NCBI RefSeq assembly: GCF_013342145.1
Contig: NZ_JABUQZ010000001.1
Location: 2,976,001-3,040,000 of the forward strand
Length of the DNA: 64,000 bases
Source: Haloterrigena gelatinilytica
GTDB lineage: Archaea; Halobacteriota; Halobacteria; Halobacteriales; Natrialbaceae
Direction of reading: 5' to 3'
Of this stretch, positions 7,116 to 59,480 are shown one piece after another; the stretch's first letter is position 1; every line of letters begins with the position of its first letter. Under the pieces are notes generated by a model that ran no database searches, was not told where the DNA came from, and saw only the letters and a program-made list of their open reading frames with translations. The translations under genes and the position numbers were made by a program.

Positions 7116-7766
7116 ATGTCTGAGACTGCCGATTCACCCGATCGACTCGAGCTCTACGCCGATTACGTCTGTCCCTTCTGTTACCTGGGGACGCGATCGC
7201 TCGAACAGTACCGCGAAGAGCGCGAAGCGCCCCTCGAGATCGACTGGCAGCCGTTCGACCTCCGCAGCGGCAAGCGGAACCCGGACGGCTCGATCGATCA
7301 CGAGGCCGACGACGGCAAGGACGACCAGTACTACGAGCAGGCCAAACAGAACGTCCGCCGGCTGCAGGAGGAGTACGGCGTCGAGATGAACCAGATCATG
7401 GCCACCGAGGTCGACTCGCTGCCGGCCCAGCAGGCGTCGTGGTACGTCAAGCAGGAGTACCCCGAGCAGTGGGCGGCCTTCGACGAGGCGATCTACGGGG
7501 CGCTCTGGCAGGACGGCCGCGATATCGGCGACACCGACGTCCTGGCGGACCTCGCCGAGACCGTCGGGCTCCCGGTCGACGAGATCCGCTCGGCGATCGA
7601 CGACGACGGGCTTCGAACGGAGCTCGAGGACCGGTTCCAGGCGGCCCAGCGGCGGGGGATCACTGGCGTCCCGACGTTCGTCTACGAGGACCACGCCGCC
7701 CGCGGCGCCGTCCCGCCGGCACAACTCGAGCGACTCGTCGAGGGTGCGGAGCAGGCCCACCGATAG
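7116..7766 (+). CDS. DsbA-family thiol oxidoreductase (FrnE-like)
   Basis: A 216-residue protein with YADYVCPFCYLG at the N-terminus (Cys19, Cys22) and the cis-proline loop GVPTFVYED near the C-terminus, separated by a helical insert. This is the DsbA-like fold of the FrnE/2-hydroxychromene-2-carboxylate isomerase group. No signal peptide is present, so it probably acts in the cytoplasm as a disulfide or glutathione-type oxidoreductase. The ATG at 7116 gives the compact start; an earlier in-frame ATG at 7077 would add a peptide over the promoter region. Confidence 0.85.
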   Translation: MSETADSPDRLELYADYVCPFCYLGTRSLEQYREEREAPLEIDWQPFDLRSGKRNPDGSIDHEADDGKDDQYYEQAKQNVRRLQEEYGVEMNQIMATEVDSLPAQQASWYVKQEYPEQWAAFDEAIYGALWQDGRDIGDTDVLADLAETVGLPVDEIRSAIDDDGLRTELEDRFQAAQRRGITGVPTFVYEDHAARGAVPPAQLERLVEGAEQAHR

Positions 7767-7790
7767 CGGTCGCGGAACGCCGTCCCGACG

Positions 7791-8642
7791 TCAGTCGAGT
7801 TTTTCGAGGCTGGAGACGAAGTCCCCGCGAGGCCCGACGAGTCTGATCGGCTCGTCCGCGACCGAGACGGTGATCGTCGCGGGGGGATCGAGTCGCCGTC
7901 GGTTCCGTCCGTCGCTGATCGCGTAGCCGGTGTCGGAGTCGGAGATCGTAATCGAGAGATCCGTGTCCGGATCGACGACCAGCGGCGGCATCGAATCGGC
8001 GGCGGCCATCTGCGTGACGACCAGCGCGTCGGCCGTCGGGTGAACCAGCGGTCCGCCCTCGCTCAAGTTGTACGCGGTCGAGCCCGCGGGCGTCGCCACG
8101 AGGACGCCGTCGGCGTGGCTGGCGGCGTACTGCCCGCCGTCGACGCGGACCTCGACGGTCGCCCCGCCGCCCGGACCCCGGCGCGGGCCGTGGACGACGA
8201 TCTCGTTGAGTGCCGGCTCGAGGGTCCAGTCGGCGCCGTCGCTCGTCGCCTCGAGGCGGGCGAGTTCGCGCCCCTCGAACGCGCCGGTCTCGCGGTAGTC
8301 CGCGACGAGATCGGTGACGACGTCGACGGCGTCTTCGGGTGCGACGGCGTTGAGAAAGCCGACCTCGCCGAGGTTGACCCCGAGGATCGGCGTGGGGCCG
8401 ACCTCGCGGGCGACGAACAGCAGCGTGCCGTCGCCGCCGATGCTCACGACGAGATCCCGGTCGTCCATCTCGTCGACCGGACACGCGGGCGCGTCGACCG
8501 CCTCGCCGGTCGCTTCGTCGACGACGACCGCGGTCTCCCCCCCATCGCGTCCGCTTCGCTCGAGCGTCTCCGCGAGCGACGCGGCGAGTCCCTGTGCGCG
8601 CTCGTTGCCTCGCTGGCCGACGATGCCGACGGCGACGTCCAT
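7791..8642 (-). CDS. nadK: NAD(+) kinase
   Basis: A 283-residue protein that phosphorylates NAD to NADP. The GGDGT catalytic signature is at residues 69-73, followed by ILGVNLGEVGFLN and the C-terminal NE/D-containing nucleotide-binding part (ALNEIVVHG, GGQYAASHADGVLVATPAGS). It uses an ATP-NAD kinase fold of typical length and is cytoplasmic. It converges with the DsbA-family gene, leaving about 25 bp between stop codons. Confidence 0.92.
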   Translation of the reverse strand: MDVAVGIVGQRGNERAQGLAASLAETLERSGRDGGETAVVVDEATGEAVDAPACPVDEMDDRDLVVSIGGDGTLLFVAREVGPTPILGVNLGEVGFLNAVAPEDAVDVVTDLVADYRETGAFEGRELARLEATSDGADWTLEPALNEIVVHGPRRGPGGGATVEVRVDGGQYAASHADGVLVATPAGSTAYNLSEGGPLVHPTADALVVTQMAAADSMPPLVVDPDTDLSITISDSDTGYAISDGRNRRRLDPPATITVSVADEPIRLVGPRGDFVSSLEKLD

Positions 8643-8892
8643 CGTCGGCGGCTACCCGCTGCGTCGTCAAAAAGCCACCCGTCACGCCGTCGGGGCGGCA
8701 ACAACATTCATCGTGGTGGGGGACACTCGAGTACGTGAACGGCCCGCGACGGCCGCCGTCCCAGATCCCGCATGACAGAGGCGCCCCCGCCGAGGTATTT
8801 CGATCGATCGCCGCAACCGCCGCGATCGGGCGGCTTCGACCGCGGTAGCGCTTCCGGCGACGGCCGTCACGGGGCAGCGGGCGTCAGCGACG

Positions 8893-9975
8893 GTGATCCC
8901 CGTGCGTGACGAGTCCGACGACTGGTTCGAGCGCGCGCTCGAGGACGCCGAGGAGTCCGCGACCGACGACGATGACGCTGCGGACGAGCCGTCCGGCGAC
9001 GGGACCGCCGAGCAGTTCGACGCGCTCGGCGGCGCCGAGACGACGGTCGACGGCGACGAGTCTGCTGAAGCCGCAAGTCAACGAGAGACGGCCGACGAGG
9101 GTAACGACGGAAGCGAAGGCGAGGGCGAACTGTTCGACGAGGACTTCGGCGCGGCGCTCGCGGACGTCGACGCTCCGAACGCCGGCGCGGACGAAACCGG
9201 CCCCGAGGGCTTCTCGGAGCTCGACTTCGGCCTCGCGGCGGGCAACGAGACGGACTTCGACGAGGCGGTCGACTCCGACCTCCCCCGACTCGAGCTCGGC
9301 ATCGAGGGGCTCGATCGAATGATCCAGGGCGGTGTTCCCGAACGCTCCTTGCTCGTCGCGATGGGAAGCGCCGGGACCGGGAAGACGACCTTCGGCCTGC
9401 AGTTTCTCGAGCACGGGCTGGCGCGGGGCGAGAACGCGGTGTACATCACCTTAGAGGAGAGCCGCCGCCGGGTGATCGACAGCGCGACCGAGAAGGGCTA
9501 CCCCTTCGACGAGTACCTCGCCGAGGACCGACTCGCCGTCGTCGACGTCGATCCCGTCGAGATGGCCAACAGCCTGCAATCGATCACGAACGAGCTTCCG
9601 ACGCTCATCGAGGAGTTCGACGCCGCGCGGCTCGTCCTCGACTCGGTGTCGCTGCTCGAGATGATGTACGAGGACCGTGCGACCCGTCGCAACGAGATCT
9701 ACGACTTCACCCGGAGCCTGAAGGAGGCCGGGGTCACCGCCCTGCTGACGAGCGAGGCGTCCGAAGAGTCGCCGTACGCCTCCCGATACGGCATCGTGGA
9801 GTACCTCACGGACGCGGTCTTCGTCCTGCAGTACGTCCGGCCGGACGACTTCCGGGAGACGCGCCTGGCCGTCGAGATCCAGAAGATCCGGGACGCGAAC
9901 CACTCCCGGGAAAAGAAGCCCTACGAGATCACGGACGAGGGGATTTCGGTCTACCAGCAGGCGAACCTGTTTTAG
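8893..9975 (+). CDS. KaiC/RAD55-type ATPase with acidic N-terminal extension
   Basis: A 360-residue protein. Residues 1-130 are highly acidic and low in complexity. A RecA/KaiC domain follows with Walker A GSAGTGKTT (158-166), ITLEES after it, a Walker B-like LVLDSVSLLEM and a C-terminal EIQKIRDANHSREKKPYEIT. Such proteins are RecA-superfamily ATPases of the KaiC/GvpD/RAD55 group, common in haloarchaea and of unclear function. The start may instead be GTG 8902; both lie in the same acidic region. The next genes (amphi-Trp, small membrane protein, UspA) read the same way but with gaps. Confidence 0.8.
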   Translation: MIPVRDESDDWFERALEDAEESATDDDDAADEPSGDGTAEQFDALGGAETTVDGDESAEAASQRETADEGNDGSEGEGELFDEDFGAALADVDAPNAGADETGPEGFSELDFGLAAGNETDFDEAVDSDLPRLELGIEGLDRMIQGGVPERSLLVAMGSAGTGKTTFGLQFLEHGLARGENAVYITLEESRRRVIDSATEKGYPFDEYLAEDRLAVVDVDPVEMANSLQSITNELPTLIEEFDAARLVLDSVSLLEMMYEDRATRRNEIYDFTRSLKEAGVTALLTSEASEESPYASRYGIVEYLTDAVFVLQYVRPDDFRETRLAVEIQKIRDANHSREKKPYEITDEGISVYQQANLF

Positions 9976-46750: not shown

Positions 46751-46757
46751 ACAGAAG

Positions 46758-46834
46758 TGCCGCCTCCCGGATTTGAACGCGGGAGACGGCATCGACTTCG
46801 TCGCGTAGCTTTCCCCGTACTGTGCTACGGCGGC
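46758..46834 (-). pseudogene. Degenerate tRNA-Phe at the left element boundary (att copy)
   Basis: On the reverse strand the 5' end reads GCCGCCGTAGCACAG, against GCCGCCTTAGCTCAG in the intact tRNA-Phe. GACGAAGTC keeps the GAA of the anticodon, and the 3' end 46778-46758 is identical over 21 bp to that of tRNA-Phe (59427-59407). The T stem and anticodon stem no longer pair properly, so it is not a working tRNA. It is one of the two direct repeats that bound the element. Confidence 0.7.
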
Positions 46835-46876
46835 GCACCTGAACCTCGGGGTGAGTCGGGCGTTTCGGTGGTTAAA

Positions 46877-47899
46877 ATGAACACGGACGAACTGCAACCT
46901 ATCACCCCGGAACGTGCGAAGGAAATGTACCTCGAAGCACGCAAGCATGAGGTATCCCAATCGACTCTCGACGGCTACCACTACCGGCTCAAACACTTCA
47001 TCAGGTGGTGTAACGAGGTCGCGGACATCGACAACATGAACGATCTTACGGGGCGCAAACTCCAAGCGTTCCGGACGTGGCGTCGGGACGACGGTGATCT
47101 CAAGCCGGTCACCTTGGAAGGGAATCTCGACGCACTACGGGTCTTCATCCGATGGTGTGAATCGATCGACGCTGTCCATCAGGGACTCCATGAGAAGATC
47201 ATCATGCCGAAGCTCTCGAAGGAAGACGAGCAAAGCGAGAGTATCCTCGAACTGGAAGAGGCTGAAGCGGTGTTGGAGTACCTTCGCCAGTTCGAGTATG
47301 CCACCCGCGAACATGTCATCATCGAAGTCCTCTGGCACACCGGGATGCGACTCGGAGCCTTCAACTCGATTGATCTGGGGGACTACGATTCGGAGCGCGA
47401 AACGTTGGAGATTCGCCACCGTCCGGAAACGGGAACTGCCCTCAAGAACGGAAAGGAAGGGGAGCGGTTAGTCGCGCTTAGTTCGACTATGTGTAGCGCC
47501 TTGGACGCATATATCGAACACAACCGCCACGATGTGCGAGACGATGCTGGACGGGAGCCGCTATTGACGAGTCGTTACGGACGCATAGCAGGGTCGTGTA
47601 TCCGTGACGCCGTTTACAAGGTTACCCGCCCTTGCTATTACACCAACCAGTGTCCACTTGGCCGCGACATCGACACCTGCGAGGGGACACACTACGACGG
47701 GTACAGCAAGTGCCCCAGTAGCGTCTCACCGCATGCTATCCGGCGCGGAAGTATCACACATCATCTTTCCGAGGACGTTCCTGAAAAGGTCGTGAGCGAT
47801 CGTATGAACGTCGGACCGGACGTCCTCGACAAGCACTATGATAAGCGAACGAAAGAGCAAAAGGTCGAACAACGCCGGGGGTATCTCGGGAATATCTGA
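46877..47899 (+). CDS. Tyrosine-type site-specific integrase
   Basis: A 340-residue recombinase. A SAM-like N-terminal core-binding domain (about 10-105; VSQSTLDGYHYRLKHFIRWC) precedes a catalytic domain with Arg158 in HTGMRLGAF, His286 and Arg289 in PHAIRRGSI, and the nucleophile Tyr321 in LDKHYDKR. Four cysteines (about 253, 259, 268, 279) form an insert before the HxxR box, probably a zinc site. ATG 46877 is used; the longer frame upstream runs through the tRNA-like sequence. It lies 43 bp from the left att copy and should catalyse integration and excision of this element. Confidence 0.93.
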   Translation: MNTDELQPITPERAKEMYLEARKHEVSQSTLDGYHYRLKHFIRWCNEVADIDNMNDLTGRKLQAFRTWRRDDGDLKPVTLEGNLDALRVFIRWCESIDAVHQGLHEKIIMPKLSKEDEQSESILELEEAEAVLEYLRQFEYATREHVIIEVLWHTGMRLGAFNSIDLGDYDSERETLEIRHRPETGTALKNGKEGERLVALSSTMCSALDAYIEHNRHDVRDDAGREPLLTSRYGRIAGSCIRDAVYKVTRPCYYTNQCPLGRDIDTCEGTHYDGYSKCPSSVSPHAIRRGSITHHLSEDVPEKVVSDRMNVGPDVLDKHYDKRTKEQKVEQRRGYLGNI

Positions 47900-47906
47900 A
47901 CGCTGG

Positions 47907-48755
47907 TTAGTCAAAGGATTCGAAGGTTCCCTGATAGCTATCATCATCAGCTAAGTCCTTGATAGCCCGTTGACAGCGGTCCATGAAAGCATCACTCGTA
48001 TTAACAAAATATTGCCTGTCGCTATCTTCTAATTTTCTCATATGTCTATTTCCATTCTTAGCTGCGAATTCTGAAAGAGCGACATCGATTTTATCAATTA
48101 TCTCTTGTTTTTCTGATCCACTTAGATCGTTCCAAAAATCCTCATAGATTTTTTCAGCAATATGGTAGGCGTCAGTCGTTGCACCGCCCTCAAATGTTTC
48201 AGAACAAAGCTTTTGATAAACCTTCTCTGCTACTAACGCCGGGTGATCGTCTCCAAGAATAGGAATAAAATGGCTTGGGAAGTAATCTATCGTAGATGAA
48301 GATACCTGGCGATCAAGAGCAGTATCGTCAAAGGTATTGATCTTCTCCAGTGTTTTGGTGTGTTTATCGTAAAGAAGCGCTGGGGAGTCGATATCCAGAT
48401 CATCTACATCCGACTCGATATCATCCAGACCAAAATACACTATCTGATGTCCCATACCCCCATTGGTAACAGCATGGCTAAATTCGGTTCTTAGGTTATC
48501 GAGATCGATATCATCTAACTTGGAAACAGTGGAATTCGTCAGTTCTTCTGGCTCACATTCAAAAACGAGAACGTATCGTTGGGACGCAAATATGATATCC
48601 GTCTTCACTCGATCACCGTTTGCGTTTAGAAACGAAGGGGAAATATTCTCTTCCTCGTATCCAGCATCTTTCAGGAATGAGGGATAATCAACTACTCCAT
48701 TAGCAAATCCAATAGCCATATTAATCAAACGCGTGCGGTCAGACAATGATACCAT
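47907..48755 (-). CDS. Uncharacterised protein A of a two-gene cassette (possible nuclease fold)
   Basis: A 282-residue AT-rich gene of unknown family. Residues 50-72 read GDRVKTDIIFASQRYVLVFE then CE; a hydrophobic strand with Asp at its start and an acidic pair at the end of the next strand is reminiscent of a PD-(D/E)xK core, but the expected Lys is absent and I do not claim a nuclease. The rest is mixed alpha/beta with acidic residues (SYQGTFESFD end). It overlaps the upstream gene by 17 bp, so the two are translated together. It converges with the integrase, 7 bp from its stop. Confidence 0.7.
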   Translation of the reverse strand: MVSLSDRTRLINMAIGFANGVVDYPSFLKDAGYEEENISPSFLNANGDRVKTDIIFASQRYVLVFECEPEELTNSTVSKLDDIDLDNLRTEFSHAVTNGGMGHQIVYFGLDDIESDVDDLDIDSPALLYDKHTKTLEKINTFDDTALDRQVSSSTIDYFPSHFIPILGDDHPALVAEKVYQKLCSETFEGGATTDAYHIAEKIYEDFWNDLSGSEKQEIIDKIDVALSEFAAKNGNRHMRKLEDSDRQYFVNTSDAFMDRCQRAIKDLADDDSYQGTFESFD

Positions 48756-49860
48756 GATCTATACCTACCAATTCTGCTCTGGAATCAAAATAGTGTTGGA
48801 TAATGGAATATAGTCGGAGAACTACGTTCCCGCAACTGCCCTCGGGAAGGTAGACTCGGATCCATTCAGAGCTAACTTCCAGATTGACTTCATCACCAGT
48901 ATGTTGGTCTACACCGGACACTCGATAGTAATCATCACCGATCTTATTATATACACCCCACAATCTGAACGGCTTTTTCGAGGTGAGTATTGTATCAAAG
49001 AAGTCCTCAAAATCAGTTATCTCGCGGTCTAAATTGATGGTCAAGGGGCTTCCACTGATTTTTGAACTGGATTCTCCCGTACCACGCGAGATACTATACT
49101 CTTCTTCAATGATCTGTAGAAGTTCATGATATCGCTCCTTCACTATATTTAATTGATAAAAGTGACCGTCTACTGAATCGCCTCTTGCTGTGAATTTACC
49201 CTGGTTAGTGATATCTTCTAAAACTACTTCTCCATCACCAACTTCGCGGCGAATTCCAATATTTGAGAGCGATGTAGATGAACCAATAGTTTCGTCGTCC
49301 GATAATTTGTCTAATACTTCTTGAGCTGTTCCACCCCACAAACGCATCGACATTCCGGATATTTGTCCGCTTGAACTGTTATTCCCAAGATTCCCAAATT
49401 CGTCTTCAAACTTGAGGGAAAAGCTTCGGAAATTATTCTCTTCCCCAAGTGTTCTTAAAAATTGGTTTGATAGCCATGGGAAGTCCAATTTGGTATATCG
49501 TGGGAAAACGACCTTCTCAATGAATCTGTCACTAACTCTCGATTTAGCAAGTGTATGTATCGACCAAAAGCGGTCATCTAATTTGTCCAGATAAAACCTC
49601 TCCGTGCTTTCCGAGCCGTTTCTAACTTTGAGGTTCACAAACCCCTTATCCTCGGTAGGGACTGTCTCAACAGAATACTTATCTGTACCTACAATGTTCG
49701 ATGAAAAATCATCTCGGTCTGATTCGATCAGGTACGACTTTAGATAGGTTTTGTCCTCATCCAATCGTTGGTCTTCCCGAATATCCTCATAAGATGCCGC
49801 CATTCGGTTCTGAAGGACTTCCTTCAGTTCCTTCCGCGAGTTGATGACGGCAGTGGCCAT
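48739..49860 (-). CDS. Uncharacterised protein B of the two-gene cassette
   Basis: A 373-residue protein from ATG 49860 (MATAVINSRKELKEVLQNRM). It has a central region with DDRFWSIHTLAKSRVSDRFI and YTKLDFPWLSNQFLRTLGEE, then SGMSMRLWGGTAQEVLDKLS, and a C-terminal part ending LYSIIQHYFDSRAELVGIDH. It is soluble with no signal peptide. I do not recognise it; the RFW...IHT pattern recalls uncharacterised proteins in archaeal defence or mobile regions. It shares a divergent promoter region of 128 bp with the pentapeptide-channel gene. Confidence 0.65.
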   Translation of the reverse strand: MATAVINSRKELKEVLQNRMAASYEDIREDQRLDEDKTYLKSYLIESDRDDFSSNIVGTDKYSVETVPTEDKGFVNLKVRNGSESTERFYLDKLDDRFWSIHTLAKSRVSDRFIEKVVFPRYTKLDFPWLSNQFLRTLGEENNFRSFSLKFEDEFGNLGNNSSSGQISGMSMRLWGGTAQEVLDKLSDDETIGSSTSLSNIGIRREVGDGEVVLEDITNQGKFTARGDSVDGHFYQLNIVKERYHELLQIIEEEYSISRGTGESSSKISGSPLTINLDREITDFEDFFDTILTSKKPFRLWGVYNKIGDDYYRVSGVDQHTGDEVNLEVSSEWIRVYLPEGSCGNVVLRLYSIIQHYFDSRAELVGIDHGIIV

Positions 49861-49987
49861 TATAGGCACTATTTCAATCGCACAGACATAAGGATTCATG
49901 GTTTGCAGCGAAAGTGAAACTGAGGGTAGGAAATAGAGAGGTCCAAGTGAGAAAGAAATTTTGATATGACAGTATTAGCAATAGTGA

Positions 49988-51532
49988 GTGAACTTGAATA
50001 GTAATCCTGTTCCAGAAGATCGGTGCGGGGTTGAATTTGAATGGAATGACGATGTAGTTCTAACCTCTGCGGATATTGAAGTAGTTGAGGGGGAGGTCAC
50101 CGGAGTTGATTTTGATGATTTCGCAATACGTAACCAATCTTGTCATAGAAAAACAGCTCCAAGCAAAGATCGGTGTAAATGGCATTCTCGATCTTACTCG
50201 GAAATAGAGTCGGAACTTCTTCAGAAAGAAGAGGAGTGGGTAGATGGTATAATACCAGGGGTTCGATTCAATAATATAACTGAAACTGATCTTTCTGAAT
50301 TCGTGCTTCCCTTTAGTCGATTCGAAGGAAACATTAATAATATTGATTTCAGTAGATCGGTCTTAGCATATTCTGATTTCTCAGGAGCAACAATAGAGGG
50401 TGTAAACTTCACAGAAAGCCATTTAGAAGAATCGCTGTTCATTGAATCAAAGATAGATCTAAACCGTGACTGGGGAAACCGAACCCAATTCCGGGAGTGC
50501 ATGCTTAATGGGGTGAATTTTTCAGGAGCAAGCTTCAATGAGCCAGTTTTCTCCGGATCTGAACTTGATGTGAATACGACCTTCGATGACGACCAAAAGC
50601 TTTCCGGCGCAGACTTCAGTGGTTGCGATTTAAGCGATACAGACTTTTCTAATACGGTAATCCGGAAGTGCGATTTCAAAAACACCAATCTCAATGACGC
50701 GGATTTCTCCAAAGCCACTTTAGACAAATCATCATTCATCAATGCAAATTGTTTGGGTGCAGTGTTTAGAGAGGCATATCTGGAAGGTGCAAAGATGGAT
50801 AGTGCCAATCTTAAATCAGCTAATTTCGAAAAAGCAGAGATAGATTCAGTTGATTTTTCTGATAGCCAAATCAATCATCAGACAGAGTTTGGGACAAAGA
50901 CGATATACGAGATTAAGAAAGAATCAGAGACATCCTTTGAAAAAGAGGCGGGTCGTAGCCTAAAGGCAATTTGGTCCTATCGGGCCCTACAGAGGTTGTA
51001 TCGAGAGAATGCATTGCTGGAAGGTGCCAGTCATTTTTATAAGAAGGAAAAAGACCTAAGGCGAAGACAGCATCGACGGGAAATCACTGGTGATGTGAAC
51101 AGAAATGTTCTAAATGAATACCCACCACAAAGCGCTATCCCATACCGCGTAGGAATCATATTCAATTATATTAAAGCAGAAGCATCCAGGCTTTCAATTC
51201 GGTATGGTGAAAGTCCATTTCAATTAATCCTCTTTTCTGGAGCTATAGTCTTTTTATTCGGGATCTTCTATCCGGTATTCGGGATTAAGTCTGATGAGGG
51301 AATAATAAGATATTCCCTTTCCACAAGTAACAGCGGTACATATAATATAATACAGCAGCTATCGTATTTCGCTGATATCCTTCATTTTAGCTTCTTCACC
51401 TTTGCCCGAACAGGAATAAGAGAAGCACAGCCAGTCGGATTTAGTCAATTTCTTGCAGCTGTTCAATCAGTAGCTGGAGCGATTGTTATTGCGTTAGCGG
51501 TATTCGTGTTAACTCGCCGGGCAACTTCGTAA
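49988..51532 (+). CDS. Pentapeptide-repeat protein with C-terminal channel-like membrane domain
   Basis: A 514-residue protein starting at GTG 49988. Residues 25-70 carry Cys/His (NQSCHRKTAPSKDRCKWHSR), possibly a zinc-binding part. From about 85 to 300 there are many A(D/N)(L/F)xx pentapeptides (GADFSGCDLSDTDFSNTVIR, ADFSKATLDKSSFINANCLG), folding as a right-handed beta helix. A charged helical linker follows. Then two membrane helices (about 405-427 and 485-510) flank FHFSFFTFARTGIREAQPVG, which lines up with the pore-loop segment of two-helix ion channels but lacks the GYGD filter. It may be a membrane effector; this is inference. Confidence 0.75.
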   Translation: MNLNSNPVPEDRCGVEFEWNDDVVLTSADIEVVEGEVTGVDFDDFAIRNQSCHRKTAPSKDRCKWHSRSYSEIESELLQKEEEWVDGIIPGVRFNNITETDLSEFVLPFSRFEGNINNIDFSRSVLAYSDFSGATIEGVNFTESHLEESLFIESKIDLNRDWGNRTQFRECMLNGVNFSGASFNEPVFSGSELDVNTTFDDDQKLSGADFSGCDLSDTDFSNTVIRKCDFKNTNLNDADFSKATLDKSSFINANCLGAVFREAYLEGAKMDSANLKSANFEKAEIDSVDFSDSQINHQTEFGTKTIYEIKKESETSFEKEAGRSLKAIWSYRALQRLYRENALLEGASHFYKKEKDLRRRQHRREITGDVNRNVLNEYPPQSAIPYRVGIIFNYIKAEASRLSIRYGESPFQLILFSGAIVFLFGIFYPVFGIKSDEGIIRYSLSTSNSGTYNIIQQLSYFADILHFSFFTFARTGIREAQPVGFSQFLAAVQSVAGAIVIALAVFVLTRRATS

Positions 51533-51648
51533 AAGAGGTAGATATACGAACTCTCTCCTTAATCATCCCCATCAACGTAGGTATATTTAGAGAGTCTAAC
51601 ATAGGGGGCGGGGAAAGAATGTTGGCGATACGGAATCAATAGGTATTC

Positions 51649-51798
51649 ATGGTCGAAAAACCAGACTTGAGCGACGTCAAGCTTCCTGAAGACGAAGATG
51701 ACGTGGTGGATATGGTGGCAGAAACTCATGGCCAGGAGTGGGCCGAAGAGCATCGTGAATTGTTGGTGGCTCAAGCCGAATTGATTGGAGACTTGTGA
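51649..51798 (+). CDS. Small acidic protein, 49 residues
   Basis: ATG 51649 encodes MVEKPDLSDVKLPEDEDDVV and continues to ELLVAQAELIGDL. It is acidic with a helical C-terminal half containing EEHRELLVAQAEL. Haloarchaeal composition inside an AT-rich element supports it as a real gene. Similar short proteins accompany integrated haloarchaeal elements (recollection). Function unknown. Confidence 0.55.
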   Translation: MVEKPDLSDVKLPEDEDDVVDMVAETHGQEWAEEHRELLVAQAELIGDL

Positions 51799-52159
51799 TT
51801 GAAAGAGCCTATTTGCTTATCGGTTAGCTTATAAAGTATTAAAACACGGGGCAAACATCACGGAACAGAATTCCGGAATAGAACTTCTATAGAAGAACCC
51901 CGAGAGGGAGAGCGAGGCTCCGAGAAAAGATCGGTCACCCAAGAGTCTATCCTGTTCCGATGGGATCGATCGTTCGAAACGGGTCCCATGTTGGGGTTTC
52001 CATTCCAGATGGCCTATCAATCCTTGACCCCGGTTTTACCCTATTTTGGGGGTCCTTTTGAACTGCGAGATACACGCAAAGAGTGTTAAACCAATTTTAG
52101 GAATTCGGGATTATACTCTTATATTAATTATATTATTTGGGAGTGGTGCGAGATTTCAG
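51799..52159. other. AT-rich intergenic region, possible plasmid control region
   Basis: No ORF is convincing. It contains short inverted repeats near 51870-51900 and 51960-52010 and an AT tract TTATATTAATTATATTATTT at about 52120. The position beside the replication-type gene would suit an origin or control region, but no iteron array or known ORB repeat is seen. Confidence 0.4.
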
Positions 52160-52206
52160 CCTCAATGTCTCTTACCATATTACTATTGCTGTAAGAGGCA
52201 TTGAGG
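52160..52206 (-). terminator. Long hairpin just past the helicase-like gene
   Basis: Arms 52160-52175 and 52191-52206 pair over 16 bp with one mismatch (CCTCAATG core) around a 15-nt loop. It starts 5 bp beyond the stop of the reverse-strand gene at 52212, where a transcript end is expected. It could also be a replication or mobility structure. Confidence 0.5.
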
Positions 52207-52211
52207 TTGAG

Positions 52212-54068
52212 TCAGACAATCCACGAATACTCGTTGGGTTGACGACCGTCTGTGATGTGCTTGTCAATCCATCCTTGGTCTATTAGCTGGTTTCTCGCCC
52301 GACGTACGGTGTTTTCTGAAACACCGACTTCGAACTGGATATCGTCCATCTTTACACGGGTACCGTTTTGGTCCCGAAGATACCGTGCTACCGCTCTTTG
52401 ACCGTTCGCGTTCTCGGGAAGGATCTGCGTTGGGGATGCCCGAGTAACGAGTCGGCTATCTTGGAGCCACTTGGGGACAGCGGTTGTATTCAGAATGACG
52501 ACGCCGTTTGGGTTGGCAAATCGAGTCGCCCACTTCGCCACGCGCGATTCGCTGAATTGATGCCGGATTGTATCACCGACCTGTCCAAACGATCCCTGTT
52601 GATCCGGAGAGTCGGGAATGGACTCCCCTGCGAGCGCCCCCCAAAGTTGGAACTCTTCGTTCCGAGGACGTGGTGACCCGTTGAGGACGACGAGCGGGGC
52701 ATTGTCGGTAATGATCGAACCGCCACGGCGATACCCAATGCCGTCCTTGGCATCGGTATTGAGTAAAGGGGGCTGTTTCGACCGATAGCGTCCGAAAGCA
52801 TTCTTAGTACTGACAATGAAGGGGCGTTTTCCGAACTCGGCTGTTGCCCATACGGCGATACTCGCGTCCCGTCCTGGTGTTACGTTGTTTCCTTCGTAGG
52901 GTTTCCGACTTGTTGCTGTCTGAATTACATCAACGTCCGTCTCTTTAGAGAGAAATTCGACAATTTCGTTGTCAGAATACACGCGTTGGTGACTGAAGTT
53001 CACCCCGTAGTAGGTTCCCCACATCCACGGTGTCGGATCTATGTTGAACGCGACGACGCTCTTAGCTTTGGTGAAATTTGGTACGTCGAGAGCGTAGATC
53101 GTATCGTCTACGGGTGTCTCGCCGGGATGTCGAACTACTCGCGTTCGGTAGTAATCGACACCACCAGCTTTGAAGGGGTCACGACCTATCGGCGGACGAT
53201 TGGTGGGGTATTTCTTTCCATGTTTGCCTTCCTGGTGGTGGAAAGATGTTTCCCACCCATTGTCAAGTTCCTCGGTGTGTAGTAATCCGAAGACGATTTG
53301 CGGCGCTAAATGGTGTCCACTCTCGTCAATTGCATATCCGAACTCTTCGTCGTGCGTAGACGGGTCGATTGTCCCATTCTCGTAGTCCCGTATGGACGGC
53401 GAACGGTTTGTGTCCCGGTTTTGAACAAAATCGCAGTATCCGGTGAATTTGGTATTTTTATTGAGGTATGAATCCAGCGCCTGTGATGGGTTCTCGATTT
53501 CAGTAATATAGGCATCTCCGCGAAGGGAACAAGTGAAAACAACACGGTCTTCAAGCAAATTGCCCATATAGGCGTGTCGTGGATTTGCGAGAACAACTTG
53601 TTCAGTGAAATTCGGACGATTCCAATCGGTGAATCGACAGTTTGGACAACACGGTAAGTCTCGGGTCAGATGAAGCAAACCGAGAGGTAGATCTTCTGTG
53701 GCACTCTTCAGTTGCTCTTCAACGGTATCTCCATAGTCCCCGACGTATGAAGGACACTTATCATATGGCGAACTTATTTCACGCGTCGATAGATTTCGCT
53801 TCTGACAACGCCGCTTCATCCTATTCAATTGGGAATTGGTGGGTGCAATGAAGACGATATTTAGGTCGTGAGCGGCAACAAGTTCAGGAATGAGTTGTTC
53901 TGGGTGAACCGTTGGAACTGGCTGAACAAGACAATCCTCGCCGCGCTGTGGCCCTCGAAGAAGGAGTTCTTTCGTCTTCCTAATGGCGTATCTTCGGCTG
54001 ATTCGACTGTTCGATAGGCTCTTACCAGTTGGACTTGTAGGTAACATTGTCTGGGGTCTACTCGACAC
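52212..54068 (-). CDS. Plasmid-type helicase-like replication protein with C-terminal winged helix
   Basis: A 618-residue protein from GTG 54068. LPTSPTGKSLS (residues 9-19) is a Walker A-like P-loop, DLNIVFIAPTNSQLNRMKRR a motif-Ia-like strand, and EFGYAIDESGHHLAPQI a possible Walker B. A further helicase-like stretch is FGKRPFIVSTKNAFGRYRSK. Residues 560-618 are a winged helix (MDDIQFEVGVSENTVRRARN). Cys-rich PCCPNC (about 140-146) may bind zinc. The layout fits large haloarchaeal plasmid or virus replication/helicase proteins. No upstream ATG exists in frame before a TGA, so the P-loop is nearly N-terminal. Confidence 0.6.
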   Translation of the reverse strand: MSSRPQTMLPTSPTGKSLSNSRISRRYAIRKTKELLLRGPQRGEDCLVQPVPTVHPEQLIPELVAAHDLNIVFIAPTNSQLNRMKRRCQKRNLSTREISSPYDKCPSYVGDYGDTVEEQLKSATEDLPLGLLHLTRDLPCCPNCRFTDWNRPNFTEQVVLANPRHAYMGNLLEDRVVFTCSLRGDAYITEIENPSQALDSYLNKNTKFTGYCDFVQNRDTNRSPSIRDYENGTIDPSTHDEEFGYAIDESGHHLAPQIVFGLLHTEELDNGWETSFHHQEGKHGKKYPTNRPPIGRDPFKAGGVDYYRTRVVRHPGETPVDDTIYALDVPNFTKAKSVVAFNIDPTPWMWGTYYGVNFSHQRVYSDNEIVEFLSKETDVDVIQTATSRKPYEGNNVTPGRDASIAVWATAEFGKRPFIVSTKNAFGRYRSKQPPLLNTDAKDGIGYRRGGSIITDNAPLVVLNGSPRPRNEEFQLWGALAGESIPDSPDQQGSFGQVGDTIRHQFSESRVAKWATRFANPNGVVILNTTAVPKWLQDSRLVTRASPTQILPENANGQRAVARYLRDQNGTRVKMDDIQFEVGVSENTVRRARNQLIDQGWIDKHITDGRQPNEYSWIV

Positions 54069-54269
54069 CCGGCGTTCATCGGAAAGGGAACCCTTGGCAA
54101 ACTTCCCTTTCAGTTCCTTCCTATCGGATTTCCCTCATAGTGATGTGACCAGGAGTCGTTACCTCATCTTAATATCTCCGCGACCATAAGCAAAACGCTG
54201 AATCGGGAGATAATAGGGGTATTAGGGGCTGAAGGTCGGAAATCCCATTCCAAAATAGGGGATGTGTGG

Positions 54270-54452
54270 TCAAAATATTTCGAGGTATTCTTCGACAACC
54301 TCATGCTCGTCGGTCAGGTCAAAGAGGTCGTAGACTGCCACGTCGATCTCGGCTTCAAGTCATCGGTATTTGTTGCGGCCACTTCTTCATGATCGACTTC
54401 GAGACGGGACAGTAATTCCTCAACGCCGTCGTCACTTCGGGAATGGGCGTCT
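54270..54452 (-). pseudogene. Decayed C-terminus of a restriction-modification enzyme
   Basis: Read on the reverse strand, DDGVEELLSRLEVDHEEVAA is followed by TNTDDL, then one lost base near 54359, then EAEIDVAVYDLFDLTDEHEV and VEEYLEIF before TGA 54270. The ending IDxxVYDLFDLTxEE...V resembles the C-terminus of Eco57I/type IIG methyltransferase-nucleases. The rest of the enzyme is absent. It is a remnant, not a gene product. Confidence 0.5.
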
Positions 54453-54519
54453 CTTCACCACTCTTCACATTGCGACCGTCTACGGTAGCGTGAACGTATT
54501 CCGATTGACGTTTTGATTG

Positions 54520-54819
54520 TCAATCGTCGCGGGTTAGTTCGTTCTCGGGCTGACTCCGATCTATGGTGGTCACACCAACGAGTCGATTCCGCCAGAGCAC
54601 CGCATCAATGACTACCTCGTCCATGCCATCAGTGTCGGTACCGATAGTTGAGCCCCCACAGTCATCACACCATATGCGCCGGATGACCCACCCGTCGGCA
54701 ACGCAGTGGGTTGCATGAGCGATCACTTTGTTGCCCGTCCGGATACCCTGATTGCATTGGTCGCAAATCTGGCCCGTCTTTGCACCGTTGAGCGCCGTTG
54801 CCGGAGCGATCTCGCTCAT
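54520..54819 (-). CDS. Zinc-finger protein, 99 residues
   Basis: A 99-residue protein with ICDQCNQGIRTGNKV (CxxC) and IRRIWCDDCGGSTIG (second CxxC) spaced for a zinc ribbon; HATHC lies between them. The tail is TIDRSQPENELTRDD. It overlaps the upstream small gene by 4 bp (ATGA), so both are translated together. Element-borne zinc-ribbon protein of unknown role. Confidence 0.65.
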   Translation of the reverse strand: MSEIAPATALNGAKTGQICDQCNQGIRTGNKVIAHATHCVADGWVIRRIWCDDCGGSTIGTDTDGMDEVVIDAVLWRNRLVGVTTIDRSQPENELTRDD

Positions 54820-54998
54820 TCAGCATCACCTGGAATCTCCCGGCGACCGCTCTGGTAGCAGTCGAAACATGGGAAGTCGTTGCTGTCACACCAGCATCCG
54901 TCTCTATCGCTCGCGGGGGCGTCGAGATGGAACCCCAGTAGTTCTCGATGTATTTCCCGTTCGGTACGCTCTTGACTCTCGGCGTGCGTAGTTGACAT
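54816..54998 (-). CDS. Small Cys-rich protein, 60 residues
   Basis: MSTTHAESQERTEREIHREL opens it, and CWCDSNDFPCFDCYQSGRRE follows with four cysteines. The stop overlaps the start of the next zinc-finger gene. Both coding status and role rest on the coupling and the Cys spacing. Confidence 0.6.
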   Translation of the reverse strand: MSTTHAESQERTEREIHRELLGFHLDAPASDRDGCWCDSNDFPCFDCYQSGRREIPGDAE

Positions 54999-55551
54999 TG
55001 GTCTTCCTTCCTGAAGGCCACTGTCCGGCGTCCCAAGCGCCGGGCTTTTCCGAAAAGTCAGCCCCGTAGGACAGCCGCCCTCTATTGATTACTACGTTCT
55101 ATAGAATAATAAGTGTTGGGAATAATGGATCAGTAAATAATAATTCAAAGTTATCTGATCTCAAAAGGGAAACCAGCGCTCTCCCTTCGTTATAAAATCA
55201 TCACATCACTCACGGTCGCTTAACGCCGCATAATGCCTTCTGACAGAGGGAGTGAAGACCATTCGGTTCAGGAAAGACATCGTCACGCGCCGTCACGCGC
55301 CGTCAAACAACGCTGTTACTCGTCGCCTTGATCGGGTTGCGCGGTATCGATGCTATTCGACTGGAAACTGGGCAGTCATTGGAAGAAGTGCCGGAGAGGA
55401 ATCACCGGATAAGTCTGTAAACGGACCCGATATTCTTCTATAACAGTAGTTAGTAATGCGGTTTCTCTATTCAGAGTTCAGTGCGAAACTCACGGTAAGT
55501 ACAGATGATGTACATACCATTTACTACTGGTGAGTTACTGTTCACCAGCTC
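54999..55551. other. AT-rich spacer, about 550 bp, no gene supported
   Basis: ORFs here are short and lack motifs; one at 55252-55443 has an atypical composition. GTCACGCGCC repeats twice at about 55280-55300. No tRNA. Confidence 0.45.
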
Positions 55552-55707
55552 TTATTGAATGGGTTGTAACTCACCCTCACCACAAGTGCAGTCAGAAACA
55601 CCGATTGGATTCACGTTTCCGTCTGAGTCAATTTGTGAGACGTACATCTCACCACAGTTCGTACAGATGGCAGCGGTTTTTTGCCGTCTACCTTCGGAAC
55701 TACTCAT
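55552..55707 (-). CDS. Small zinc-ribbon protein 1, 51 residues
   Basis: ATG 55707 encodes MSSSEGRRQKTAAICTNCGE, then a middle with DSDGNVNPIG and a DCTCGEGELQPIQ end. Two CxxC-type pairs bracket a short strand region. It is clearly a paralogue of the protein at 56157-56351 (MTEEGERQRAAAVCENCGTA, DETCTCGDGDLRIL), sharing spacing and the xPIGxxxxCTCGxGxL pattern. Short zinc ribbons of this type may bind nucleic acid; role unknown. Confidence 0.7.
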   Translation of the reverse strand: MSSSEGRRQKTAAICTNCGEMYVSQIDSDGNVNPIGVSDCTCGEGELQPIQ

Positions 55708-56156
55708 GATAACTCATGCCACAACATCACGCATCAGTATTAGCCCAAATCAGAGGGGTAGTTAACTAAGATAATTAACTTGTAGCCACGCATAACAATT
55801 TGTGGCTCTCCTTTGCAATTACTGGTTCTCCACAGACTGTCCCCCAGATAATCGCTACAAGCCTGCAGTGGACGGCCAAGGGGCTATGCGTGTTACTCCT
55901 TAACACTAACATGATCTGCCCCAGCGGATATACACCGTGAATAGGGCAGGTCACGCAGTGAATCGGAACGGCCACGCATCTCATAAACGCTCCTGCACTG
56001 AACCACTGAAAATTCATCCCGTTCCGTTGGCTGCGTACACGGTGAGGGCAAATGCAGCGACACCCCTACTGCATTTGCCTTTTGAGAACCGTGACGAAAG
56101 GTATGCCGTTAAGTACAGAGGATATAGTTACCAGTACATTCAGCTACCTCTTTGTT
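55708..56156. other. Spacer between two paralogous zinc-ribbon genes, no gene seen
   Basis: About 450 bp. A frame at 55775-56017 on the reverse strand has an atypical His/Cys/Val composition and no start context; it is not supported. It probably holds the promoter of the 55552-55707 gene. Confidence 0.45.
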
Positions 56157-56351
56157 CTACATATCTACGTCTTCGAGAACGGACCCATCGTTACTGAGAA
56201 TACGAAGATCCCCATCGCCACATGTACAAGTCTCATCTCGTCCACTCCCAATAGGCCGTATTTCGCCGTCAGGCCCTAGACGCACCGCATGGGCAGTCCC
56301 ACAGTTTTCACAGACTGCTGCTGCCCGCTGTCTCTCACCTTCCTCCGTCAT
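56157..56351 (-). CDS. Small zinc-ribbon protein 2, 64 residues
   Basis: From ATG 56351: MTEEGERQRAAAVCENCGTA, then AVRLGPDGEIRPIGSGRDET and CTCGDGDLRILSNDGS. It is a paralogue of the 51-residue protein 450 bp to the left, which fixes this start rather than the longer frame to 56465. CENC and CTC supply the metal ligands. Confidence 0.7.
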   Translation of the reverse strand: MTEEGERQRAAAVCENCGTAHAVRLGPDGEIRPIGSGRDETCTCGDGDLRILSNDGSVLEDVDM

Positions 56352-56756
56352 ATCTGATTTCATGGGAGGATCTGAGTTAACTATTGCCATAGCGGGAGAG
56401 ATAGTCTCTCGTTGATTAGTTAGACGAGCACTGATCGTTGCAGCGTTAAGAAAAATGCGGGCCATTGAATCGTGGTTGGGCAGTTGATCAATGACCCGCC
56501 TCTATCGTAACGTTCCCTGTACGGATAAGAAAGTGGATCAGTCAGCGGCCCACTCAATACGCACATAGCGTTACCATGCCTTTCAGATAGAACTTACCTG
56601 AAAGACTATCCGAGAACCCCGGTAGAATTGGCTGGATGATCGTGGGTTAGCGGTCAGTACAGGGGGCACAAAGCTCGTTCGTAATCGGAGAATCAAATCC
56701 TGGTACAGAAAGGCACCACACCTTTTCCAGCTGACCGGCAAAGTACCAATCAACGA
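56352..56756. other. Intergenic, about 400 bp, divergent promoter region
   Basis: It separates the reverse zinc-ribbon gene and the forward membrane gene. No ORF with motif and no RNA seen. Confidence 0.4.
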
Positions 56757-57668
56757 ATGGACGACCGAGTCAGTCGATGGCTGCTCCTCTCAGGGGATCG
56801 GTTTACCGTCGCCACTGGGATACTCTTCGCCATGGCTGTGGTGGTGCTTATCCCTCTCTTCTCCCAGTTTGCCATCCGCAATCTCACGCCGTTAGTCTAT
56901 CTCGCGAGCGCGTTAATCGGGGGGAATATCACGCTTATCACCCTTGTGGTCGCGATCAACCAAGTAATTCTCTCCCAAGAACTGGAATCACCGGGGTCGC
57001 TCCGAGACGAGATTGACCAAACGTCCGACTATCGGCAGGCAGCACTCGACCAGCCGGCACCACCGACCGATCCAGCCGACTTCCTGCAACAGCTCCTTCA
57101 ACAAACCCAAGAACGCGCCGGGTCGCTCACGGAATTTCTCCCCGACTCGACCAGTGAATCGGATACCCACCTTATCGATGAGCTACCGGAGGAATGTGCC
57201 CAGATTAGCGAGGAACTCGGGACAGGATCGGATAAGCTCTCTTCGGTGATTGTTCCTCTCCTTGGTATCGAATACGCGACCTACATTCATGAATGCCATC
57301 AGCTTGAATCGGCTTACGAGGGGAATGAGGATGAACAACTGCTCTCCACGCTCGATGGCTTGAGCGCGGATTTGAAGAATCTCGACATTGCTCGACAGTA
57401 CTTTACGACCGCGTTCATGAAGGAAGAACTCGCAAAACTCTCTCGCTCACTCCTGTATGTCGGTGTACTGGCTATTTCTCTCCCAGTGGCGTTACTCCTC
57501 CAGCTCACTACCTTTCCCACGGCGTTTGCCCCTCTGCCAATAGTGTTTGTTTTCACTCTCCTCACAGTTTTGGTCGGTCTCGTCCCTCTTGCGCTCCTGA
57601 TAGCGTTTATCCTCCGGGTAGCAACAGTGGCCCAGCATATCGCGTCAATCACTCCATTCATGACGTAG
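56757..57668 (+). CDS. Four-helix membrane protein with large soluble loop
   Basis: A 303-residue protein: two N-terminal helices (FTVATGILFAMAVVVLIPLF; YLASALIGGNITLITLVVAI), a soluble part of about 150 residues rich in Gln, Glu and Ser (DPADFLQQLLQQTQERAGSL), and two C-terminal helices (YVGVLAISLPVALLLQLTTF; FVFTLLTVLVGLVPLALLIA). It has no known motif. Similar layouts occur in haloarchaeal proteins of unknown function. It is cargo of the element. Confidence 0.7.
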   Translation: MDDRVSRWLLLSGDRFTVATGILFAMAVVVLIPLFSQFAIRNLTPLVYLASALIGGNITLITLVVAINQVILSQELESPGSLRDEIDQTSDYRQAALDQPAPPTDPADFLQQLLQQTQERAGSLTEFLPDSTSESDTHLIDELPEECAQISEELGTGSDKLSSVIVPLLGIEYATYIHECHQLESAYEGNEDEQLLSTLDGLSADLKNLDIARQYFTTAFMKEELAKLSRSLLYVGVLAISLPVALLLQLTTFPTAFAPLPIVFVFTLLTVLVGLVPLALLIAFILRVATVAQHIASITPFMT

Positions 57669-57900
57669 CAACAACCGCGACTGGGAGTGATTTCGTCGCC
57701 GTACGGGAGGACATGTTAGTTGTATCAGGCTACCCAAGAGAGAAGACGTAAGTTGGTTAATAGCACGGATTTCGATCAGTAAGCACACGTAGTTTTCGCT
57801 CAGGGATGAAACTCATAATAGCCGATTTATAAGGCGAGAATGGCCAGTATGTGTAGGCTCTGCCGTTTTATCCCGTGAATGAGTACAGCCAGTGTCGATC

Positions 57901-58338
57901 ATGAGCAACACGAACACTGAAACGGGCCGCGATGCTGAATCGACTCGGAACAGAGATGCCCTCAACACGGACACGATGCAGTGGGTGAGCGCGATCGTCG
58001 CCTTGGCCGGACTGGGACTCGTCGCCTACCCGTTCATGTTTGAGTCCACGGAGGCGGCAATCTGGAATGACACCCTCACAGGGACGGCGATCTTCCTGCT
58101 CTCCGGCTATAACTTCGTCCGTCTGTCGCGGAATCGGCTAGCGAGCGTCGGCGTCGCCTCGCTGGCCACACTACTCGGACTTTGGGCACTCGTCTCGCCA
58201 GCGGTCATCGAAATGGGGAGCAGTGAACTCGCGACAGCCACCGCCGCCGGTGGACTGATCGCAGCTGCCCTCTCAGCATACAACGCCTACGCTAACAGCA
58301 AGGCTGATACCCCCGAGCATGCCCCCGCTCGCGCTTAA
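57901..58338 (+). CDS. SPW-repeat-like membrane protein
   Basis: A 145-residue protein with about four hydrophobic helices. MQWVSAIVALAGLGLVAYPF and LATLLGLWALVSPAVIEMGS are the two repeat halves, each with the W/P pattern typical of SPW-motif proteins. The acidic N-terminus is short. ATG 57901 is used; a GTG 9 bp upstream is in frame. G+C is near chromosomal level here, unlike the middle of the element. Confidence 0.7.
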   Translation: MSNTNTETGRDAESTRNRDALNTDTMQWVSAIVALAGLGLVAYPFMFESTEAAIWNDTLTGTAIFLLSGYNFVRLSRNRLASVGVASLATLLGLWALVSPAVIEMGSSELATATAAGGLIAAALSAYNAYANSKADTPEHAPARA

Positions 58339-58690
58339 ATAAGATCACTAGTTTTTCACCCCCGAAGGGATGAGAACGGGTTCGACAGTTCCTACACCGA
58401 TCTAATAAAACAACTGCTCACTACGCAGCTGTAGTTACCGAATCGTCCGATTCAGTTTCAGGGAATATCTGAATAAAGAAATCGTGCTACTATCTGCTGA
58501 TAAGATTATCGCGGCCCAATGTGGCTGTGAAAATGGTTAGAAGAGAAATTATAGAACGGGATGACTGGACGAAAGCGCGATGAACCCCATTCACGATCTA
58601 TCCGACGGCCTCTCGTAGGAGCCATAGATCATCTCTTCTGTGAAGACACTTGATCGTCAATTCTATTGTTTGTACACCGCGTCTTATACT
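58339..58690. other. Intergenic, 350 bp, nothing recognised
   Basis: AT-rich, with no ORF or structured RNA that I can support. Confidence 0.4.
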
Positions 58691-59068
58691 ATGGTACGAG
58701 AGACAGACCTTGACCGTGATCGGGATGCGATCCGCAAACTTCTCTACCGACTTCGTCCGGGTGACAAAGTTGCCGTGGCGACCAACGCAAGCTGGAGTGG
58801 GGGAAGTGATGGGACGCGGAAAATGCAAATCGAAACAGTGACCCTCGAAACATCACCCGTAGACGGCGAAGAATACTATCGGATCTACGGGAAGGGGAAG
58901 AGGCAACGTCAACAGGAAGAGAGCGGGAGTTACGTCTTGATGCCCGAGAAGCCGTCGGGAAAAGGGAACCATCCCGCTCCGGAAGGCTATCACCGTACCC
59001 CCAACTCGGATGCCGAGTATCAGGAAACCACTGGGGGTGCGATCACGGGGATCGAAGTGAGTCGATAG
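58691..59068 (+). CDS. Hypothetical protein of the element, 125 residues
   Basis: From ATG 58691: MVRETDLDRDRDAIRKLLYR, then LRPGDKVAVATNASWSGGSD and a basic, Gln/Gly-rich second half (GKGKRQRQQEESGSYVLMPE). The first half looks like a small beta barrel with a helix before it. No family recognised. It is the last gene before the right att site. Confidence 0.6.
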   Translation: MVRETDLDRDRDAIRKLLYRLRPGDKVAVATNASWSGGSDGTRKMQIETVTLETSPVDGEEYYRIYGKGKRQRQQEESGSYVLMPEKPSGKGNHPAPEGYHRTPNSDAEYQETTGGAITGIEVSR

Positions 59069-59313
59069 CAATCCACTGGATTACGTTCCGGTCTTCTTGA
59101 GCGGAAAGCTACTTCACCGTAGCTTAGATCAGTTGGGCGCGCGCCAGATTCACTTGACCGAATACATGATTATCTTATGACCCAATCACAACAATTTCCG
59201 GATCTAGGCAGTACACGTGGTTCAAACGCCGATATTCATACCTACAGACGGAAATTTGATAAGTCTACAGCCCCTATGATTATACAGAAACGCCCGACTG
59301 CTCTGGGGCGCGT

Positions 59314-59337
59314 CCGTCTCCCGGTTCAAATCTCTCC
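59314..59337. repeat. Inverted arm matching the left att pseudogene
   Basis: The forward strand here reads CCGTCTCCCGGTTCAAATC, which is complementary to 46771-46789 at the left boundary apart from one extra base. On the tRNA strand it lies 70-93 nt beyond the tRNA-Phe 3' end, where the proximal arm of a tail hairpin would be. The partner arm lies 12.5 kb away at the other end of the element. Confidence 0.55.
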
Positions 59338-59406
59338 AGGATTTTCGGGGGCAGTACCGTCGAAATCCACTGCTGTACGGTCAATGTGGATCGTTTCGGA
59401 GAAGTA

Positions 59407-59480
59407 TGCCGCCTCCCGGATTTGAACCGGGGACAGCTCGATCTTCAGTCGAGTGCTCTCCCAGTCTGAGCTAAGGCGGC
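59407..59480 (-). tRNA. tRNA-Phe (anticodon GAA), right att site
   Basis: A 74-nt cloverleaf: acceptor GCCGCCT/AGGCGGC, D arm with GCTCAGACTGGGAGAGC, anticodon arm TCGA-CTGAAGA-TCGA (anticodon GAA), T arm CCCGG-TTCAAAT-CCGGG, discriminator A. Its 3' terminal 21 nt are repeated at 46758-46778; the element lies on its 3' side. Confidence 0.93.

Follow-up and report, generated by a model that had tools for sequence, protein, structure and literature searches.

A conserved gene pair of predicted nuclease-fold and DNA-binding proteins, a candidate genome-surveillance system, in an integrative element of Haloterrigena gelatinilytica

What does a gene pair that sits beside an integrase, and that matches no family in the common annotation libraries, do for the genome that carries it? 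The question is raised by a locus of Haloterrigena gelatinilytica, located within a stretch of 64,000 nucleotides (positions 2,976,001 to 3,040,000 of contig NZ_JABUQZ010000001.1; the whole stretch is here denoted the window). Gene A (48739..49860, reverse strand, ATG to TGA) encodes a predicted DNA-binding protein of 373 amino acids, RdgC/RexA/CENP-L-like, and gene B (47907..48755, reverse strand, ATG to TAA) encodes a protein of 282 amino acids predicted to have a degenerate PD-(D/E)xK nuclease fold. An earlier account made from the letters alone (the sequence-only reading) had noticed two AT-rich reverse-strand genes overlapping by 17 bp. The coordinates and the overlap, exactly 17 bp, were reproduced, and the GC content is 0.42 for A and 0.41 for B, versus 0.66 in the host flank. 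The label 'Protein A' in that reading was ambiguous; here A is always the 373-amino-acid protein and B the 282-amino-acid protein. Our answer, which we favour tentatively, is that A and B form a two-gene genome-surveillance system in which a nuclease tethered to the sliding clamp works with a protein that wraps DNA; its targets would most likely be viruses or plasmids.

Distribution and pairing of A and B

Full-length A was found in 12 of 199 haloarchaeal genomes, the window included (13 matches, one of them partial). Identity among these relatives goes down to 33%, none has internal stops, and a second gene directly adjoins the first in the haloarchaeal loci, indicating that A and B are genes rather than chance open reading frames (ORFs). 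When 392 genomes of the phylum were searched with a profile, 23 matches came up, some of which form a methanogen-type branch, and profile comparison demonstrated that this branch and the main one are homologous for both A (E 2.6e-34) and B (E 5.8e-14). Relatives of the pair span haloarchaea, methanogens, Thaumarchaeota, Methanocaldococcus, Firmicutes, Actinobacteria and Chloroflexi. A is also present in Methanoperedens, Thaumarchaeota, Actinobacteria, a Dehalococcoidia bin and Enterococcus, and it is plasmid borne in Halobacterium, Methanocaldococcus jannaschii (on its extrachromosomal element, ECE), Lysinibacillus and Metabacillus. A decayed A copy with several in-frame stops lies at G376:C8:40935-41406.

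B adjoins A, mostly overlapping it, in almost every locus that is readable on both sides. The exceptions are broken or partial loci: one with a frameshifted downstream B (L044), two that are truncated (L046 and L047) and copies comprising the C-terminal part only. Actinobacterial loci have the opposite order, with B ahead of A and the two genes overlapping or almost touching. The methanogen-type branch showed a complete downstream B in ten inspected loci, the exceptions being L098, which ends at a contig end, and L096, in which B is broken. The distances of A and B co-vary (Mantel r 0.93, 0 of 2000 permutations). Adjacency kept across archaea and bacteria, even with the order reversed, together with co-varying distances, bears out the suggestion that the two are co-encoded. 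Neither of the outcomes that would have told against the sequence-only reading, homologues mostly outside mobile or defence regions or a predicted housekeeping fold without pairing, was observed.

Models of Pfam, NCBIfam and PADLOC cover neither A nor B, in agreement with the sequence-only reading. Across all members these libraries gave nothing usable, only scattered single matches at E 1e-4 or worse, and none of 30 A or 29 B proteins matched a PADLOC-DB model with an E value below 0.0018. A sequence-profile search of the PDB detected no match for the pair, nor did tblastn of a phage collection with A and B. Both proteins strongly match PHROGs families of unknown function. Of two scans of viral contigs, one was empty and the other gave two loci; L051 (Enterococcus) repeats L045. 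The literature yielded no match for MJECL24 and no description of the A-B pair. Since the pair is absent from these annotation libraries, it is invisible to defence-gene surveys built on them.

Predicted folds, active site and tail

The structure predicted for B (pLDDT 84) comprises a PD-(D/E)xK nuclease-fold domain (residues 1-158, 48282..48755, reverse strand), a winged-helix-like domain (residues 170-262, 47970..48248, reverse strand) and a disordered C-terminal tail. Structural comparison of the first domain by VIA gave Z scores of 6 to 8.3, with many PD-(D/E)xK enzymes heading the list: BsmI (8.3), EndoMS/NucS (7.8 for 5gke and 7.7 for 2vld), XisH, Bax1 and McrC. The Foldseek matches were weak (E 7e-3). 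The second domain resembled MukE, the kleisin C-terminal winged-helix domain and E2F/DP in the VIA comparison. The proposal of a PD-(D/E)xK strand pattern without the Lys stands for the 282-amino-acid B (VKTDII...VFECEP) and falls for the 373-amino-acid protein; gene A as a PD-(D/E)xK protein was rejected.

The consensus of main-branch B proteins, PD(L/V)(I/V)L...(D/E)(C/F)K(S/G)...Q..(R/K)Y, corresponds to a PD-(D/E)xK active site. All 26 main-branch B proteins outside the window branch retain the D-(D/E)-K triad, the first Asp being Glu in L024, and the triad can be read in the downstream B of L044 despite the frameshift. The active-site region of the window B (residues 53-68, 48552..48599, reverse strand) retains D53 and E66 and has Glu68 in place of the Lys. 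The two other members of the window branch, which are the nearest relatives of the window B, read E, D, Arg (L002) and D, Asn, Glu (L003); the catalytic Lys is gone in all three, and two carry another triad change, at differing residues. As the main-branch copies elsewhere keep the full triad, the loss of the Lys is specific to this branch, and judged by these residues the window B is a dead nuclease whose cutting site has been lost. In methanogen-branch B proteins ELT replaces (D/E)xK and a conserved Lys stands several residues further on, so that the Lys has possibly migrated.

The tail of the window B ends in YQGTFESFD. Residues 275-281, QGTFESF (47913..47933, reverse strand), form a motif like a PCNA-interacting peptide (PIP), in a segment predicted to be disordered (pLDDT <50). 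The patterns used for the tails were the textbook consensus ones, applied after looking at the first tail set. All 11 bacterial tails carry the beta-clamp pattern, versus a shuffle mean of 0.09, in the forms QLSLF, QMDLL, QLDLL, QYDLF and QMDLF and near forms of these. The PIP pattern is present in 13 of 23 dereplicated archaeal tails, versus 0.93 by shuffling, in QxxLxxF-like forms such as QTSLAEY, QETLDKW and QRTLSDF, and the beta-clamp pattern in none of the 23. Methanogen copies found later served as a fresh test and showed the motif in six of ten readable tails. As far as sequence can tell, the tail motif suits the clamp of each domain, PCNA type in archaea and beta-clamp type in bacteria. 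We also observed that the methanogen-type loci L096-L108 have strong PIP boxes, with L108 lacking the tail motif, and that in the actinobacterial loci of B-A order (L037-L043) the beta-clamp motif lies a few dozen residues ahead of an acidic C-terminal end.

A was modelled with a pLDDT of 86 and a pTM of 0.87. Its residues 1-249 (49114..49860, reverse strand) are predicted to form RdgC/CENP-L-like domains, residues 7-249 giving VIA Z scores of 8.2 for CENP-L, 7.2 for RdgC, 6.7 for Iml3, 5.7 for CENP-N and 4.9 for RexA. Residues 254-371 (48748..49101, reverse strand) match CENP-N/TBP at Z 4-5 and contain the conserved pattern DLH...GD...CGN..R...N.Q. Consistent with a TBP-like domain, several TFIID/TBP proteins were among the weak matches of A in the Foldseek viral library. 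RexA, RdgC, IML3 and CHL4 make up a published DNA-binding fold group, in which RexA and RdgC match with a DALI Z of 4.4 (PMC11077077), and Iml3 and Chl4 are orthologous to CENP-L and CENP-N (PMC4080450). The model thus assigns to A, with moderate strength, an RdgC/RexA/CENP-L-like fold with a TBP-like C-domain. The top Foldseek matches of A (KICSTOR, T-protein, phytochromes) were noise, with TM <0.2. Short ORFs matching the TBP-like C-terminal part of A alone, and lying in a gene cluster that has no B, were noticed in L013 and L026 (Natronosalvus plasmid) and in L025.

Gene neighbourhood and rival readings

Among the matches listed for 97 neighbour proteins, the commonest families were N6 methylases, ResIII and SNF2 helicases, Eco57I-type enzymes and AAA ATPases, the counts being lower bounds (best 25 families per scan, PADLOC/Pfam). 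In 6 of 30 genomes a gene for an N6 methylase (PF02384) is found no further than 10 kb from A, versus 0.40 expected (P 1.6e-6). The expectation derives from methylase numbers and genome sizes, some of the six distances were calculated manually from contig coordinates, and the statistic ignores the kinship of genomes. This enrichment near restriction-modification genes fits the setting suggested by the sequence-only reading. In Pseudofrankia (L038) the order is hsdM-hsdS-hsdR-B-A, all on one strand, the hsd subunits being named from gene order, size and the PF02384 match. Two other neighbours were judged by eye: a small protein, NYN/PIN-like, encoded divergently to A in the related loci L068 (11319-11798) and L069 (11192-11701), and a large ORF with a PLD-like start downstream of B in a Halorubrum-type locus (L008 from 3672; a 1270-amino-acid ORF in L075), which may be another defence-type helicase.

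In the surveillance system that we propose, A, as an RdgC/RexA/CENP-L-type protein, would wrap or encircle DNA. The flexible C-terminal peptide of B would dock on the sliding clamp of the replication machinery (PCNA in archaea, the beta-clamp in bacteria), and this docking would place the A-B complex on freshly replicated or recombining DNA, where B would cut whatever A has flagged as abnormal or foreign.

The window branch has a third gene. It encodes a pentapeptide-repeat protein (49988..51532, forward strand; PF00805) with a channel-like C-terminal membrane domain, which includes two transmembrane-like segments and a pore-like segment. This gene divergently adjoins A in the window, G087 and G090, the three loci whose B is dead, and no other locus in the comparison has it there; in this branch it counts as the third member of the module. 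G090 has a canonical pore-like segment (TFTTLGYGDIQP; L066, gene 7706-9307). In the window branch the non-cutting B is probably a clamp adaptor or pseudo-nuclease, and the membrane protein may be a new effector that has taken over from cutting, in a layout like RexA and RexB; that parallel is a suggestion only. The fusion of pentapeptide repeats to a potassium-channel-like pore segment in haloarchaeal proteins, as in the window and L066, is an observation in its own right, and related C-terminal segments occur in 67 of 198 haloarchaeal genomes. Extended to all relatives, the proposal becomes a so far unrecognised defence family present in both archaea and bacteria. Its DNA-wrapping protein, of kinetochore/RexA-like type, would license a nuclease kept on the clamp, the clamp peptide would have been rewritten per domain, and one haloarchaeal branch with a dead nuclease would have recruited a pentapeptide channel-like effector. 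In this full form we regard it as doubtful.

Several points weigh against surveillance by A and B. PIP-type motifs are short, and 10 of the 23 archaeal tails miss the pattern. Comparison of A with RexA and RdgC by hhalign detected no sequence similarity (E 0.11 and 0.063, one pair), and a Z near 8 can reflect a common arrangement; given the lack of a sequence signal to RexA or RdgC, the likeness of A is a fold resemblance of moderate strength. In the window the pore segment (TFARTGIREAQP) is degenerate and the channel signature seen in L066 is lost. The three dead-B loci probably go back to one ancestral event, and hence the pentapeptide link counts as a single association. Finally, most loci have no methylase nearby, which leaves a repair or replication role open.

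Such a role is the rival that survives best, and we still consider it unlikely. The pair would then serve DNA repair or fork maintenance, for the host or for the element on whose island it is borne, B being a repair nuclease tethered to the clamp in the manner of EndoMS/NucS and A an RdgC-like fork protector. The nuclease-fold matches of B to 5gke and 2vld, a C-terminal clamp peptide in common with EndoMS/NucS (PMC8228993) and the work of RdgC in recombination and fork repair (PMC11077077) all speak for it. Unlike a conserved repair gene, however, the pair occurs patchily, as the 13 matches in 199 genomes and 23 in 392 indicate, lies on plasmids and islands, is enriched near restriction genes and has a decayed active site in one branch.

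That decay could also mean that the window carries a decaying remnant, in which the catalysis of B was lost and nothing took its place. All three window-branch B proteins lack the Lys and two of them differ further in their triads, as expected of such a remnant. The frames are nevertheless open, A is conserved at 49-56% identity, the clamp-type tail is kept in the window and L002, and the order int-B-A-pentapeptide recurs in G087. These features argue for a retained function of the window-branch pair, and we judge the remnant improbable. The least probable rival is a plasmid or element maintenance or incompatibility module, with A as a centromere-like or partition protein on its own DNA and B attacking competing replicons: copies on the plasmids named above and on integrative elements and the CENP-L/N-like fold of A would fit it, but many copies reside on main chromosomes or large contigs, Actinobacteria included, in general no partner ATPase was seen beside the pair, and no tie to replication genes was found.

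The element and comparison with known systems

The pair travels as cargo. It is carried by an integrative element, about 12.65 kb long, in a tRNA-Phe gene (46758..59433); the element has terminal 27-nt direct repeats, lower GC than the host and an empty site in congeners. The attL-type repeat lies at 46758..46784 and the attR-type repeat at 59407..59433, both read on the forward strand, the latter being identical to the 3' end of tRNA-Phe (59407-59480, reverse strand). In congeners G002 and G004 tRNA-Phe is uninterrupted and both flanks of the element are directly joined. The left end is occupied by a tyrosine integrase (46757..47899, forward strand; PF00589, phrog_1), whose true start is probably later than the first GTG. 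It adjoins B, and with the 27-nt repeats bounding the element the view of the pair as integrase-linked cargo was upheld. Elsewhere in the element a 618-amino-acid ORF (52212-54068, reverse strand) has a helix-turn-helix-like C-terminal end and no family match; it is perhaps a replication protein.

If the surveillance reading of A and B is true, prokaryotes would have an added way of directing nucleases against DNA that is foreign or being replicated, namely tethering to the replication clamp, and the clamp peptide would switch to match between the two domains. The presence of a CENP-L/N-like fold in such a pair of archaea and bacteria would also bear on the origin of kinetochore proteins. The family can be tested in culturable hosts.

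Of the known systems, type I and type IIG restriction systems are frequent neighbours of the pair, and their nucleases have a fold in common with B; they differ in that the pair contains no methylase or helicase. RexAB resembles the window branch in setting a DNA-binding-type protein beside a membrane protein. The differences are that A has a nuclease as its partner in most loci, and that the gene for the membrane protein is divergent and pentapeptide/channel-like instead of encoding a RexB-type four-helix protein. RexA and RdgC, with their globular and dimerisation domains, may have a fold akin to that predicted for A (Z 4.9 and 7.2), although a Z below 8 may stand for a common arrangement, and no sequence similarity was detected. 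The best structural matches for A, the TBP-like domain included, are to CENP-L and CENP-N (Iml3 and Chl4), yet these are centromere proteins of the eukaryotic inner kinetochore, and we do not claim a shared function. In predicted fold and tail motif B resembles EndoMS/NucS, which combines a PD-(D/E)xK nuclease fold with a C-terminal sliding-clamp peptide, PIP-type in archaea and beta-clamp-type in bacteria (PMC8228993), and so sets a precedent for a clamp peptide that changes type between domains. B has no Pfam or NCBIfam match to the NucS family models, and the architectures differ: EndoMS/NucS has an N-terminal DNA-binding domain and a C-terminal nuclease, whereas B has the nuclease first, the winged helix after it, and A as its conserved neighbour.
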